Part shown: piece by piece, positions 40,961-47,115 of the stretch
How the letters are laid out: each line of letters starts with the position of its first letter
Numbering within the stretch: position 1 is the stretch's first letter
NCBI GenBank assembly: GCA_016192135.1
Contig: JACPUR010000040.1
Span: forward strand, 67,771-117,589
Source: Candidatus Tectomicrobia bacterium
GTDB lineage: Bacteria; UBA8248
DNA length: 49,819 nucleotides
Direction: 5' to 3'
Program-made: the position numbers and the translations under genes
The notes under the pieces: model-generated
The model's database searches: none
Seen by the model: only the letters and a program-made list of their open reading frames with translations
Told to the model about the DNA's origin: nothing

Positions 40961-41440
40961 ATGAAGATCAAGCGGTCCTGGAAAGCGATTGTGCTGAGCG
41001 GAGCCGGGCTGGCGCTGCTGGCCGGGGTCATCGTCCTGTCCGGAAAGCCCACCCAGGGAGCGCCGGTGATGACGGTCTACAAGACCCCGGCGTGAGGGTG
41101 CTGCGGCGCGTGGGTGGTTCACCTGCGCTCGGCCGGCTTCAAGGTTGATGCGAGAAACGTATCGAGCATCTCCCTTGAGACAGCCAAGGACGAGAACGGC
41201 GTGCCGCCCGGCCTGCGGACGTGCCATACCGCCCGGGTGGGAGACTACGTGATCGAGGGCCACGTCCCGGCGGAGGTCATCCACCGGCTGCTGAGAGAGA
41301 AACCAGACGTGAAAGGCATCGGGGTGCCCGGGATGCCCGTCGGCTCCCCGGGGATGGAAGGTCCTGGCGCCCGGCTTTATACCGTCTACTCATATGATCG
41401 GGACGGCCGCACCCGGGTATACCAGCAGGTGAATCCCTAG
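40961..41440 (+). CDS. DUF411-family selenoprotein (U-G-C-C motif), 159 aa with in-frame UGA
   Basis: ATG 40961 (GGAGGAG upstream) starts an exported protein with a hydrophobic N-terminus (AIVLSGAGLALLAGVIVLSG). The mature part reads MTVYKTPA, then UGA (41093-41095, residue 45), then GCCGAWVVHLRSAGFKVDA. DUF411 proteins carry MxVYKSPTCGCCxxW at this point, so the UGA replaces the first of three motif cysteines exactly. The later GVPPGLRTCHTARVGDYVIEGHVPAEVIHRLL and GIGVPGMPVGSPGME are the conserved rest of the family. DUF411 proteins are copper/metal-associated periplasmic thiol proteins. The hairpin at 41106-41128 is a candidate SECIS. A start downstream of the UGA would lose the motif entirely. 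The gene opens the selenoprotein island. Confidence 0.85.
41106..41128 (+). promoter_or_regulatory. Candidate SECIS hairpin of the DUF411 selenoprotein
   Basis: GCGC (41106-41109) pairs with GCGC (41125-41128). The inner stem is either GGTG with CACC (41113-41116 and 41120-41123) around a GTT loop, or GTG with CAC closing a GGTGGTT loop. The apical loop begins 17-21 nt after UGA 41095, and a small bulge separates the two stem parts, as in known bacterial SECIS elements. Confidence 0.6.
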
Positions 41441-41940: not shown

Positions 41941-42705
41941 CTACAGAAAGTTGTAAACCGCCGTGTCGTGAACCCCCGCCAGCAGGAAGATCACGCCCGC
42001 CAGCCGGCGGAACGCCGCGTTCCACCGGGGCAAGCCTCGCGTCCATCCCGCCGCGAGCCCGCTTCCGAGCGTGAGGGCACCCACGGCGAGCAGGAGCGGC
42101 ACCGCGGTCCCGAAGCCGAAGATGAGCGGGAAGGCGAACCCTCCCCCGCTCTTCAGGCTGAGCGGCAGCACCCAGCCGAAGAAAAGCAGGAAGAGCGTGG
42201 GACAGAAGGAGAAAGAAACCGCGAACCCCAGGAAGCCCGCGCCCCAGGCTCCATCTCCCCGGTGCATCCCTTGAAGCTTCTGGGAGAGCCTCCCGCCCAC
42301 GCTGAAGCGCAGCCGGAACGCCCCCAGGAAATACAACCCCGCCAGGATGAACGCGGGGCCGAGCAGCCTCCGGTAGAAGATGACGAAGGGGACCGACCTG
42401 GCTTCGAGGGTGGAACCCAGCGCAAACGCGAGCGCGCCGAAGATCCCGTACGCCAGCATCTTCCCCCCGGTAAACAGCGCCCCCGCACGCAGGGCGAAGG
42501 CGGACTCCCCCGGCCGCTGGGCGGCGTAGGAGGCCGCGGTCAGGTTGCCCGTCATCTGGCAGGGCGAGAGCGATCCCAGCACGCCGAAGAGGAAGGCACT
42601 CAGGACGGGAACCTGGAGCGTATCGATCCACCCGTTGATCGGACCGTACAGGGAATACGCCGCCTGCGAGAGCAGGATGTACCATTGGCCGATGAGGTCC
42701 CTCAT
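41941..42705 (-). CDS. CcdA/TauE-like membrane protein (thiol or selenol electron transporter candidate)
   Basis: 254 residues, six or more helices. FGVLGSLSPCQMTGNLTAASYAA and FAVSFSFCPTLFLLFFGWVLPL each carry one cysteine after a Ser/Pro turn in pseudo-repeated halves, the arrangement of CcdA/ScsB/DsbD-type proteins that move reducing equivalents across the membrane. It could equally be a TauE/SafE-type exporter. Its place next to the UxxU thioredoxin-like gene favours the electron-transfer reading. Both Cys codons are ordinary TGC. Start ATG 42705 has AAAAGGAAGAG upstream. Confidence 0.7.
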   Translation of the reverse strand: MRDLIGQWYILLSQAAYSLYGPINGWIDTLQVPVLSAFLFGVLGSLSPCQMTGNLTAASYAAQRPGESAFALRAGALFTGGKMLAYGIFGALAFALGSTLEARSVPFVIFYRRLLGPAFILAGLYFLGAFRLRFSVGGRLSQKLQGMHRGDGAWGAGFLGFAVSFSFCPTLFLLFFGWVLPLSLKSGGGFAFPLIFGFGTAVPLLLAVGALTLGSGLAAGWTRGLPRWNAAFRRLAGVIFLLAGVHDTAVYNFL

Positions 42706-42780
42706 GGAACTCTTCCTTTTCCAGCTTCCCTCACGACGACAACCAAACCATCCCCGAACCCGAAGCCGTTCGGGCAAACG

Positions 42781-43296
42781 TCAGCGAAGGAAACGTCCGG
42801 GGTCCTTCCCGGCCTCATCCCAGAGCTTCAAGGCGTCGTCGAACGAGTAGCTCACCCAGCGCTTCCTGCCCTCGGCGTCGATGAGGACAACGGCCGGATG
42901 TCCCCGGAGGCCGTACTTCCGGAAAGCGTCCGCCGTAGGGTCCATCAGGATGACCGCCTCAATCTTTTCCGCTTTCACGAACTCCGCGACCTGGCTCCTG
43001 GCCTCCCCCACGCTGATCGCCAGGACCTGGATTCCCTTCCCGCTGGCCTCCCGGGCCAGCCGCCCGAGGGACGGCAACTGCCGTCCTCAGACGGGTCAGG
43101 TGGTCTGCCAGAAAGCGAGAAGAACAGGACTCCCGCGGAGGCCCTTGAGCGACACGGACTTGCCGCTCAGGTCCGGGAGCTGGAACCCCGGCGCCTGAGG
43201 ATGATCCGGAAACAGGATGACGCTCTGGGCAAAAGCGGCACCCGGCAGCATGAGCGCCCCAAAGACCAGCCCCAAAAGGATGCGTCTCGCGAGCAT
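42781..43296 (-). CDS. TlpA/AhpC-TSA thioredoxin-like selenoprotein with a UxxU active site, 171 aa
   Basis: Starting at ATG 43296, a signal peptide (LLGLVFGALMLPGAAFAQ) precedes a thioredoxin fold: APGFQLPDLSGKSVSLKGLRGSPVLLAFWQTT, then UGA (43098-43096), Pro, Val, UGA (43089-43087), GRQLPSLGRLAREASGKGIQVLAI, later YGLRGHPAVVLIDAEGR with the cis-Pro loop. TlpA/ResA proteins have FWxTWCxxC exactly here, so both active-site cysteines (residues 67 and 70) are replaced by UGA, giving UxxU. Both halves align with one family, share one frame and have no other frameshift. A strong hairpin follows the second UGA and another with a GG-containing loop begins 24 nt after it. The likely role is disulfide/selenosulfide exchange in the periplasm, fed by the CcdA-like gene downstream. 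Confidence 0.85.
43047..43086 (-). promoter_or_regulatory. Tandem hairpins after the UxxU codons (candidate SECIS)
   Basis: In the minus-strand RNA, GGACGGC pairs perfectly with GCCGTCC around AGTT immediately after the second UGA (43086-43069). A second hairpin, CCTC-GGG with CCC-GG-GAGG, closes loop CGGCTGG at 43062-43056, whose start is 24 nt after the second UGA. The second has the expected SECIS position and loop; the first may be a further recoding or pausing structure. Confidence 0.6.
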
Positions 43297-44657: not shown

Positions 44658-45203
44658 CTACAACCGCAGATACGCCTCCGTATTCCCCCATTCCCCCCTT
44701 TCCTGGCGGAAGCTCCTCGACTTGTCGACGAGAACCTGCCCGTCCTCGGCCAGGACGATCTTCAGGCGCTCCAGGGGCCGGGGCGCGGGGCCCTCGAAAT
44801 TCACCCCGCTCCGGTAGAAGCCGCTCCCATGGCAGGGGCACTTGAACTTGTTCTCCTGGGGGAGCCAGTTCGGGGTGCAGCCCAGGTGGGTGCAGACGGC
44901 CAGGAGGGCATAAAAGCCCCCCTCCTCCCGGACGATCCACACCCGCTGGCTCTGCTTGTAGCGCTCGTCCACCGCCCCCGCGATGTATTCCTCGGGCTGG
45001 CCCGCCTTGAACACTGGAGCAGGCTCGAAGAGGACCCGGGGGAAGAGAAAGCGGAGGAAACCCAGCAAGGCCACCCCCAGCGAGCCCAGGACGCCCAGCC
45101 ACCCCACCCAGTTCATGAAGCGCCGCCGGTCCATGCCCCGGGGAGGAGGCTTCACCATCTCCCGGGGCATCTGAATCCGAGGCTTCTCCTTCACGGCTGC
45201 CAT
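44658..45203 (-). CDS. Rieske [2Fe-2S] protein, QcrA-like
   Basis: 181 residues: a basic twin-arginine-like N-terminus (GMDRRRFMNWVG) and one membrane helix (WLGVLGSLGVALLGFLRFLFP), then the Rieske domain with cluster ligands CTHLGC and CPCHGSGF. It resembles the Rieske subunit of menaquinol-cytochrome c reductases, but no cytochrome b or c gene adjoins it. In this operon it may pass electrons between the quinol pool and the SCO/selenoprotein set. Start ATG 45203 has GGAGGAGGC upstream. Confidence 0.82.
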   Translation of the reverse strand: MAAVKEKPRIQMPREMVKPPPRGMDRRRFMNWVGWLGVLGSLGVALLGFLRFLFPRVLFEPAPVFKAGQPEEYIAGAVDERYKQSQRVWIVREEGGFYALLAVCTHLGCTPNWLPQENKFKCPCHGSGFYRSGVNFEGPAPRPLERLKIVLAEDGQVLVDKSRSFRQERGEWGNTEAYLRL

Positions 45204-45258: not shown

Positions 45259-46191
45259 TCAGTTCCGCGCCTGGTTCTGCTTCTTCCAGGACTTCCCGCC
45301 GTCCCCGCTCCGGTAGATCGTTCCTTCCGTCGTCGAGACGAAGATCTCCTCGGGACGCTTGGGGTTCACCGCCACGGCGGCAAGTTCCTTCAACTCGGGC
45401 GACATGGAAACCCACGCGCGGCCCCCGTCCGCGCTCCGGAAGAGCCCCTGGAGCATGGCCGCGTACATGACCTGCGCGTTCCCCGGGTCCGTCGTGAACC
45501 CATGCACCGTCCGTCTCGCGGGCAGACCGCCCACGTTGAGGAAGCCTCAGAATCAGTCCGGGCTCTTGAACAGGCCCTCCGTGGTGCCCGCGTAGAGGTA
45601 GATGCCCCCCATGCCGGTCGAGAGGTTCACCGAGGCGAGGGACTTCACCTCCCCCTTCGGGCCGTCCGCCACGCGCTCCCAGCTCTTCCCGCCGTCCCGG
45701 GTGCGGTAGATGCCCTCGGCCCCGTCCCGGACGGCCGCGTGGAGCTTCTCCGTGGAGTTGGGGTCGAAGGCGAGGCCGTGGATGTCCTGGCCGCCCAAGC
45801 CCTCGCTCATCCGCGCCCAGGTGGCGCCACCATCCACCGTCTTGAAGACCCCCGCCTCGTGCGTCCCGAGGTAGATGACCTTCGGGTTCCTCATGTCCGG
45901 GGCGATGGACATGACCTCCAGCTGGGGATGCCGGGGCGAGACCTTGGCCTCCTTCCACGTCTTCCCGCCGTCCTCGCTCCGCAGGAGGGCGTGATGCGTC
46001 CCCATCCAGAGGGTTTTGCCCCCGGCGTCCGTCACGAGCGCATGGACGTGCCCGTACCGGAAGCCGTCTTTCTCTCCCTGGGATGGCGAGGCCGCCAAGC
46101 CCGGGGAAGCCGCGCCGGCGCCCGCGAGCGAGAGAAGCGCCCCAAGGGCGCACGCGCCTCGCAGATTTCTTAGGCCCAATATCCGTCTCAC
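45259..46191 (-). CDS. BNR/YCF48-like beta-propeller selenoprotein with a UFU motif, 310 aa with two in-frame UGAs
   Basis: GTG 46191 has a near-perfect AAAGGAGG and overlaps the upstream stop by four bases. A signal peptide (ACALGALLSLAGAGAASPGLAA) precedes a propeller of Asp-box repeats: RSEDGGKTW, KTVDGGATW, RTRDGGKSW, RSADGGRAW and RSGDGGKSW. The repeat between the third and fourth of these reads LFKSPD, UGA (45555-45553), Phe, UGA (45549-45547), GFLNVGGLPARRTVHGF. The two UGAs (residues 213 and 215) thus sit where an Asp-box turn would be, as U-F-U-G. The cysteine counterpart would be a CFCG metal or redox loop. Propeller repeats continue after the UGAs to TAG/TGA-free sequence up to 45259, so the gene is not truncated. 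A hairpin with a GGTCT loop follows. Confidence 0.8.
45518..45534 (-). promoter_or_regulatory. SECIS hairpin candidate with a GGTCT apical loop
   Basis: In the minus-strand RNA, GTGGGC (45534-45529) pairs with GCCCGC (45523-45518, one G-U pair) around GGTCT (45528-45524). The loop starts 18 nt after the second UGA and 24 nt after the first. As I recall, it matches the GGUCU loop of the E. coli formate dehydrogenase SECIS, making it the most convincing of the set. Confidence 0.7.
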
Positions 46192-46574
46192 GAGCGGACC
46201 TCCTTTATGGGTTCCTCCAAAACATTCTCCGCCAGGGGGACCGGCGGGGCGGCCGCTCCGCCCGCGCCCGGCTGCTGGCGCGACATCCGCCACATCATGA
46301 AGCCCATCGCGGCGGGACACGCGAGAAAGGCGAGTGTGGAGAGGAGCGAGGCCCCGGTGATGCCGAGGACGCCCCCGAAGAGAGGCAGCGCCGCCAGCAG
46401 GAGAATCGGCGCGGCGCAGCAAGCGGCCATCTTCAGGTATCCCATGTGCCCGCCGCCCGGGTGGCAGCCGGCCCCGGCCCCTTCCGGCGCGGCTCCGCTG
46501 AATGGCTCAGCTCCCTTTGACGGCTCCGGCTTACGAACCTCGGCGGGAGCGCTTTGCCGATCTTCTTTCGTCAT
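46188..46574 (-). CDS. Small Cys/Gly-rich membrane protein, 128 aa
   Basis: Begins MTKEDRQSAPAEVRKPEPSKG, a charged cytoplasmic stretch, then GAGCHPGGGHMGYLKMAACCAAPILLLAALPLF and a second hydrophobic helix (LLSTLAFLACPAAMGFMMW). CH, CC and C-P motifs facing the membrane suggest metal or heme-like binding, as in small DUF2933-type proteins. Its stop overlaps the GTG of the propeller selenoprotein gene, so it is translationally coupled. The function is unknown. Confidence 0.65.
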   Translation of the reverse strand: MTKEDRQSAPAEVRKPEPSKGAEPFSGAAPEGAGAGCHPGGGHMGYLKMAACCAAPILLLAALPLFGGVLGITGASLLSTLAFLACPAAMGFMMWRMSRQQPGAGGAAAPPVPLAENVLEEPIKEVRS

Positions 46575-46656: not shown

Positions 46657-47115
46657 TTAATAAATGGAGCGGGCGTGCCCCGTGCGCTTGTCCACGATGA
46701 CCTTGTCCACGAGGGCGCCGTCCTTCGTCGTGATCTCCACGACAAAGCTGGCCGTTTCCTCCGTCACCTTCCCCGCCTTGAGGTTCGGGTTGCGGAGGTT
46801 CGTCAGGTATTGCTTGACGATGGCTTCGGCCCTCTCCTTGGTGACGGGCTCGGCGGAGGCGGGCGAGGCCTCCATCATGCGGCCGCACTCGTTCATCATC
46901 CGCATCATGCCCATCATCCCGCCCATCCCGCCTTGACCACCCATCATCCCGCCGCCCTGGCCCATCATGCCGCCTTGACCCATTCCGCCTTGCCCCATCA
47001 TGCCGGGGCCCATCATGCCCCCGCCTTGCCCGCCCATCATGCCCCCCTGGGCGAAGGCGTAGCCGGCGGCGGCGAGAGTCAGCAGTGCGGCGAGCGCGAT
47101 GATTTTTCTGTTCAT
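46657..47115 (-). CDS. Met/Gly-rich periplasmic protein with a PepSY-like C-terminus
   Basis: 152 residues. The signal peptide (IIALAALLTLAAAGYAFAQG) precedes about 60 residues of GGMMG-type repeats rich in Met, as in copper-binding periplasmic proteins, then a C-terminal module (VTKERAEAIVKQYLTNLRNPNLKAGKVTEETASFVVEI, DKVIVDKRTGHARSIY) that resembles a PepSY domain. The likely role is Cu(I) sequestration. Start ATG 47115 has GGAGGTTT upstream. It leads the minus-strand operon. Confidence 0.75.
   Translation of the reverse strand: MNRKIIALAALLTLAAAGYAFAQGGMMGGQGGGMMGPGMMGQGGMGQGGMMGQGGGMMGGQGGMGGMMGMMRMMNECGRMMEASPASAEPVTKERAEAIVKQYLTNLRNPNLKAGKVTEETASFVVEITTKDGALVDKVIVDKRTGHARSIY

Follow-up and report, generated by a model that had tools for sequence, protein, structure and literature searches.

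The locus described here raises the question of whether a gene carrying two in-frame UGA codons six bases apart encodes a protein with two selenocysteines (Sec, U) and, if so, what a Sec-Phe-Sec motif might do in a beta-propeller. It lies in a 49,819-nt stretch of a Candidatus Tectomicrobia bacterium contig, hereafter the window.

A six-box propeller with two in-frame UGA codons

The gene occupies positions 45259..46191 of the minus strand in a single frame (45259-46194 translated with TGA read as U), which encodes 310 residues and ends at a TGA stop. Its GTG start codon at 46191 is preceded by AAGGAGG, and the gene coordinates of the original prediction are therefore exact. Codons 213 and 215 are UGAs, so that the product reads ...TTEGLFKSPDUFUGFLNVGGLPARR... 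across them. The elements of the gene to which we refer below are:

46199..46205, minus strand: ribosome-binding site AAGGAGG, from the sequence
45553..45555, minus strand: UGA codon 213, putative first Sec codon of UFU; kept in L038, G115 and G381, replaced by TGC where homologues read CFU or CFC
45547..45549, minus strand: UGA codon 215, putative second Sec codon of UFU; kept in six of six Sec genes
45541..45564, minus strand: fourth Asp box, S-P-D-U-F-U-G-F, residue 210; in register with the five others
45517..45535, minus strand: SECIS-like hairpin CGUGGGC-GGUCU-GCCCGCG; its loop lies 24 nt downstream of UGA 213 and 18 nt downstream of UGA 215

Pfam matches of the product were to BNR/Asp-box, Sortilin-Vps10 and PSII_BNR. 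AlphaFold2, run with six window and locus sequences, returned a confident all-beta model (pLDDT 84, pTM 0.85), for which Foldseek retrieved Asp-box propellers, namely GH74 enzymes, Ycf48 and DAIP. Six Asp-box-type motifs, at residues 72, 118, 164, 210, 253 and 295, together with the predicted fold, identify the product as an Asp-box (BNR) beta-propeller whose fourth box has no Gly. The N-terminus, read by eye, resembles a signal peptide, from which we infer that the protein is exported.

The published Asp-box consensus is S-X-D-X-G-X-T-W (PMC2716378). Aligned to it, the UGAs of the fourth box fall on the X positions flanking the usual Gly, which is replaced by Phe, and the 46-residue repeat spacing is preserved at this box. 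Regular spacing and the location of the UGAs at consensus X positions indicate a substitution and rule out an insertion in the blade. The pair had been predicted to sit at an Asp-box turn with Asp boxes on both sides, as is indeed the case; its description as inserted in a blade has to be dropped.

The UGA pair corresponds to an invariant Cys pair in homologues

Among 18 genomes of the phylum, one other carries the propeller gene, that of Candidatus Tectomicrobia bacterium RIFCSPLOWO2_12_FULL_69_37 (L038), from the same genus as the window genome, with 78% identity and both TGAs at the same codons. Relatives retrieved from named genomes by first-round tblastn, L038 apart, shared about 33% identity or less and were uninformative on the motif. 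A profile search of 386 bacterial genomes yielded six in which a match reached 1e-40, and the best match has a motif TGA in all six. UFU is found in the window genome, L038, and a related pair from another phylum (G115 and G381); CFU takes its place in G048 and G074, each a member of a further small phylum. In G115 and G381 the gene stops at TAG, the two TGAs being the only ones between start and stop. A second domain-wide genome sample, largely overlapping the first, contained no further member, and wider scans within the phyla of G048, G074 and G381 covered one to four genomes each. Since the same codons are TGA in L038, and also in G115 and G381, the UGAs are neither chance nor assembly errors, the latter a doubt that had accompanied the prediction.

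Homologues with CxC at this loop, for example CFCG, had also been anticipated, and we found them: all ten Cys homologues read, from alphaproteobacterial plasmids, have DCFC exactly at the UFU position. The motif is KSPDCFCGW in Jiella, Nitratireductor and Sinorhizobium plasmid proteins, and RVPDCFCRW or similar elsewhere. D-C-F-C makes up four of the 22 invariant columns in a 12-row alignment. These propellers from copper- and mercury-resistance plasmids, for example Jiella WP_139802388 and Sinorhizobium pSinB WP_173238108, are about 31-45% identical to the window protein and resemble it in length, Asp boxes, motif position and SCO/TlpA/CcdA context, but have Cys at both places and no SECIS-like hairpin. 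They are annotated as hypothetical, exo-alpha-sialidase or sialidase family proteins. Within the subfamily, homologues devoid of a Cys or Sec pair are thus not the rule, since six Sec and ten Cys members have one. Asp-box proteins further removed from it, at most about 33% identical, have ordinary Asp boxes in place of the pair, which therefore marks a subfamily rather than the fold. The homologue tree has weak deep forks and long branches, and the order of Sec and Cys is not fixed by it.

Several neighbouring configurations were recorded in passing. In both other-phylum genomes, the gene immediately upstream of the UFU gene encodes an Asp-box paralogue that does not have UFU (L143 7862-8902(-); G115:C143:41387-42292). 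At G002:C185:1217-3523 (L121, L023), in the same genus as the window genome, a PCYCGC-Sec gene and an Asp-box protein occur close together; the latter has an ordinary box in place of UFU and is possibly a motif-less counterpart of the UFU propeller. On a Nitratireductor plasmid (L130 6723-7454), the DCFC gene overlaps at its 3' end with an IS6 transposase gene, and its last repeat is replaced.

A conserved hairpin and Sec machinery support UGA recoding

The hairpin recurs in every Sec gene at identical spacing (18 nt from the second UGA), with a stem of 6-8 bp and a five-base loop that reads GGUCU, or GGGCU in one gene. At the same position, the six Cys genes tested form a stem of 0-1 bp only. 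A stem of this kind at that spacing occurs in about 1% of the codons of these genes; when every permitted geometry is counted, 6-bp stems are frequent (23-34% of codons). G115 and G381 have U-A instead of C-G as the closing pair, owing to two synonymous and jointly compensatory changes, GGC to GGU and CUG to CUA. Pair cells are kept at 97% over five distinct rows, and sliding the partner destroys pairing. A minimum-energy fold of 57 nt showed no excess over shuffles, the best fold not always containing the hairpin, and a comparison of the two Tectomicrobia genes showed no significant increase in synonymous conservation (p 0.25). The element presumably resembles that of E. coli fdhF. Bacterial SECIS rules prescribe a loop of 3-9 nt with G in the first two bases, a stem of 4-16 bp, a distance of 16-37 nt from the UGA and -7.5 kcal/mol or lower (PMC13188914), and the window hairpin complies with them for both UGAs (GGUCU, 7 bp, 18 and 24 nt, -12.1 kcal/mol). 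A single hairpin after the second UGA thus appears to serve both codons.

The window genome encodes tRNA-Sec (74.8 bits) and a full SelB (389 bits), the two components on which we judged the Sec machinery to be present. Neither exceeded its cut-off in the G074 assembly, nor did SelB in G001, perhaps because these assemblies are incomplete. The part of the gene downstream of the UGAs is evidently translated, since its dN/dS (0.30) matches that of the part before them (0.29), purifying selection being equally strong on both. The propeller gene has what is expected of a bacterial selenoprotein, an in-frame UGA at a conserved site occupied by Cys in homologues.

Two readings would dispense with Sec. 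UGA is a standard-code stop and terminates the propeller gene itself, so codons 213 and 215 could be true stops of a truncated propeller or marks of a decayed gene; conservation of both across phyla, undiminished selection downstream and Cys homologues running continuously through DCFC make this very improbable. UGA also occurs inside several genes of the locus, as it would if the organism read it as an ordinary amino acid, an option that we consider more remote still, because UGA ends many ORFs here, including that of the propeller, the internal UGAs lie at conserved Cys positions, and tRNA-Sec and SelB are present. TGA conservation, Cys homologues, the hairpin, tRNA-Sec and SelB, purifying selection and the neighbouring Sec genes described below collectively argue, at the sequence level, that UGAs 213 and 215 are almost certainly decoded as selenocysteine.

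The propeller gene lies among metal, thiol and further Sec genes

On the minus strand, the order is Met-rich protein, small membrane protein, UFU propeller, Rieske, SCO1/SenC, PCYCGC, TlpA-like and DsbD/CcdA, with a DUF411 gene on the opposite strand at the end of the block:

46657..47115, minus strand: Met/Gly-rich exported protein without Pfam match; kept in L038
46188..46571, minus strand: small membrane protein with the Cys pair KMAACCAAP; its stop overlaps the propeller start (GTGA)
44658..45203, minus strand: Rieske [2Fe-2S] protein, PF00355
43860..44627, minus strand: SCO1/SenC protein, PF02630
43337..43825, minus strand: PCYCGC/CYCXC family selenoprotein, UGA at 43462-43460
42781..43296, minus strand: TlpA/AhpC-TSA-like protein, UPVU in place of CxxC, UGAs at 43098-43096 and 43089-43087
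41941..42777, minus strand: DsbD_2/CcdA-type membrane protein, PF13386
40961..41440, plus strand: DUF411 protein with UGCC for CGCC, UGA at 41093-41095

Small genes similar to that of the membrane protein precede the propeller in L038 and L143. Three neighbours (PCYCGC, TlpA-like UPVU and DUF411 UGCC) have in-frame UGAs at Cys positions of their families, bringing the locus to four Sec genes and six Sec in about 5 kb. The PCYCGC protein scores above the cut-off of the curated model NF041379, 'CYCXC family (seleno)protein', a known Sec family, and each of the eight genes of the phylum that match PF13798 contains one TGA. The TlpA-like protein reads FWQTT-UPVU against FWATWCGPC in a relative, which places Sec at both active-site Cys. 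The DUF411 gene has a SECIS-like hairpin and its UGCC is kept in L038 (near 9503(-)); as DUF411 is absent from a published table of 119 Sec families (PMC13188914), its Sec form would seem to be another new Sec family.

Homologue loci contain varying sets of SCO, TlpA/DsbE, DsbA, CcdA, and DUF411 or DUF1573 genes, with the addition of Cu-ATPase, PCu(A)C, CueR, multicopper oxidase, cytochrome oxidase assembly protein or MerT/MerB. SCO is present in nearly all of them, most have copper genes without mer genes, and MerT and merB adjoin the Jiella homologue. A DUF411 protein responds to copper stress in Pseudomonas (PMC6444534). We regard it as very likely that the propeller gene belongs to a metal/thiol operon.

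A possible selenolate site for soft metals

We propose that the exported propeller would hold D-U-F-U-G-F in the hairpin turn of its fourth Asp box, UFU being the Sec counterpart of the DCFC that is invariant in a propeller subfamily of copper/mercury-handling, thiol-redox operons. Selenolates are expected to have higher soft-metal affinity and lower redox potential. Two of them would grip Cu(I) or another soft metal in a periplasmic surface loop, as the CFCF thiolates of Cox11 do, and metal or electrons would pass between this site and the SCO, TlpA, DsbD/CcdA and DUF411 proteins of the adjacent genes. In Cox11, copper is held by the two Cys of CFCF in a surface loop (PMC9172173). From this analogy and the copper and mercury genes found alongside the family, we put the chances that UFU/CFC is a site for Cu(I) or a similar soft metal at about even; the full statement, with Sec decoding, equivalence to the DCFC site and the soft-metal mechanism, we favour by a little.

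Sec decoding would equally accommodate a redox couple that holds no stable metal, whether diselenide, selenenylsulfide or disulfide, in exchange with the TlpA-like UPVU protein and DsbD. TlpA-like, DsbE, DsbA and CcdA genes lie beside the family almost everywhere, thiol-redox neighbours suit such a role just as well, and oxidoreductases make up the majority of known selenoproteins whose motif has been identified (PMC13188914). We nonetheless consider this rather unlikely, given the specific copper and mercury genes in the same loci, a CxC/UxU spacing less usual than CxxC for thioredoxin-type exchange, and a predicted model that is a propeller without thioredoxin fold. The copper, mercury and thiol neighbours and the CFC spacing of Cox11 led us to prefer a soft-metal site over a purely redox diselenide, and the two roles would be compatible if the relay keeps the UFU site reduced. 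The metal itself might be mercury or another toxic soft metal, the site serving detoxification or sensing rather than copper delivery. Hg(II) is bound strongly by selenolates, MerT and merB stand beside the Jiella homologue, and several families in the 119-family table are mercury-linked (PMC13188914); this option is improbable in our judgement, as most homologue loci have copper genes without mer genes and nearly all have SCO.

Soft-metal binding by UFU admits a broader, tentative reading to which, as a whole, we give somewhat less than an even chance. The UFU propeller, UxxU TlpA, PCYCGC-Sec and DUF411-Sec might form a periplasmic selenolate relay that acquires Cu(I), transports it and passes it on. 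UFU might be a new biological copper-selenolate site, and the family the first with a propeller fold and UxU. The CFC, CFU and UFU forms might record a stepwise exchange of sulfur and selenium.

Relation to known families and significance

The best NCBIfam match of all members tested was the F510_1955 family glycosylhydrolase model NF045728 (81-131 bits), which the window propeller matches at 100.8 bits against a cut-off of 175; all members score below it. The Ycf48/HCF136 photosystem II assembly factor shares the Asp-box propeller fold with the window protein, as Foldseek and sequence matches revealed, whereas the score against its NCBIfam model is 63.9 bits for a cut-off of 326, which rules out that identity, and the context in the window is metal/thiol and non-photosynthetic. 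The BNR/YCF48-like propeller originally proposed is hence borne out as regards the Asp-box fold; YCF48 itself is only distantly related, the nearest named model being F510_1955, below cut-off.

The Cu(I) chaperone Cox11 (CtaG) resembles the DCFC form in that it is an exported beta protein, has a surface loop with two Cys split by Phe, and occurs in a copper/oxidase context (PMC9172173). It differs from the UFU propeller in its immunoglobulin-like fold and unrelated sequence, only the C-F-C spacing being common. Indeed, the 45259-46191(-) product is modelled as a propeller and does not have the Cox11 fold. We know of no Sec form of Cox11. Multi-Sec proteins and operons have been described (MbdU, the UxxU families, and the selenoprotein operons SAO and Tso; PMC13188914), and likewise feature two Sec per protein and clustered metal/redox Sec genes; none of these is a propeller or has UxU, and the gene set of the window cluster is different. 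The 119-family table of this 2026 review includes PF13798, DUF1573 and UxxU thioredoxin-like Sec families, and no propeller, UxU motif or DUF411 (PMC13188914). NCBIfam 20 holds no propeller or UxU selenoprotein model matching the 45259-46191(-) product, and the open-access literature yielded nothing on selenoproteins in connection with Tectomicrobia, BNR repeats or DUF411.

As far as tested, the UFU propeller would therefore be a new selenoprotein family that relies on a known mechanism, UGA recoding: a double-Sec protein with a fold and motif absent from that table and from NCBIfam 20, in a cluster of four Sec genes. Such genes are broken at UGA by standard annotation. SECIS spacing rules find a test case in a hairpin that apparently serves two UGAs at a distance of six bases, and the natural CFC/CFU/UFU series makes the contribution of each selenium atom to a metal or redox site directly accessible to study.
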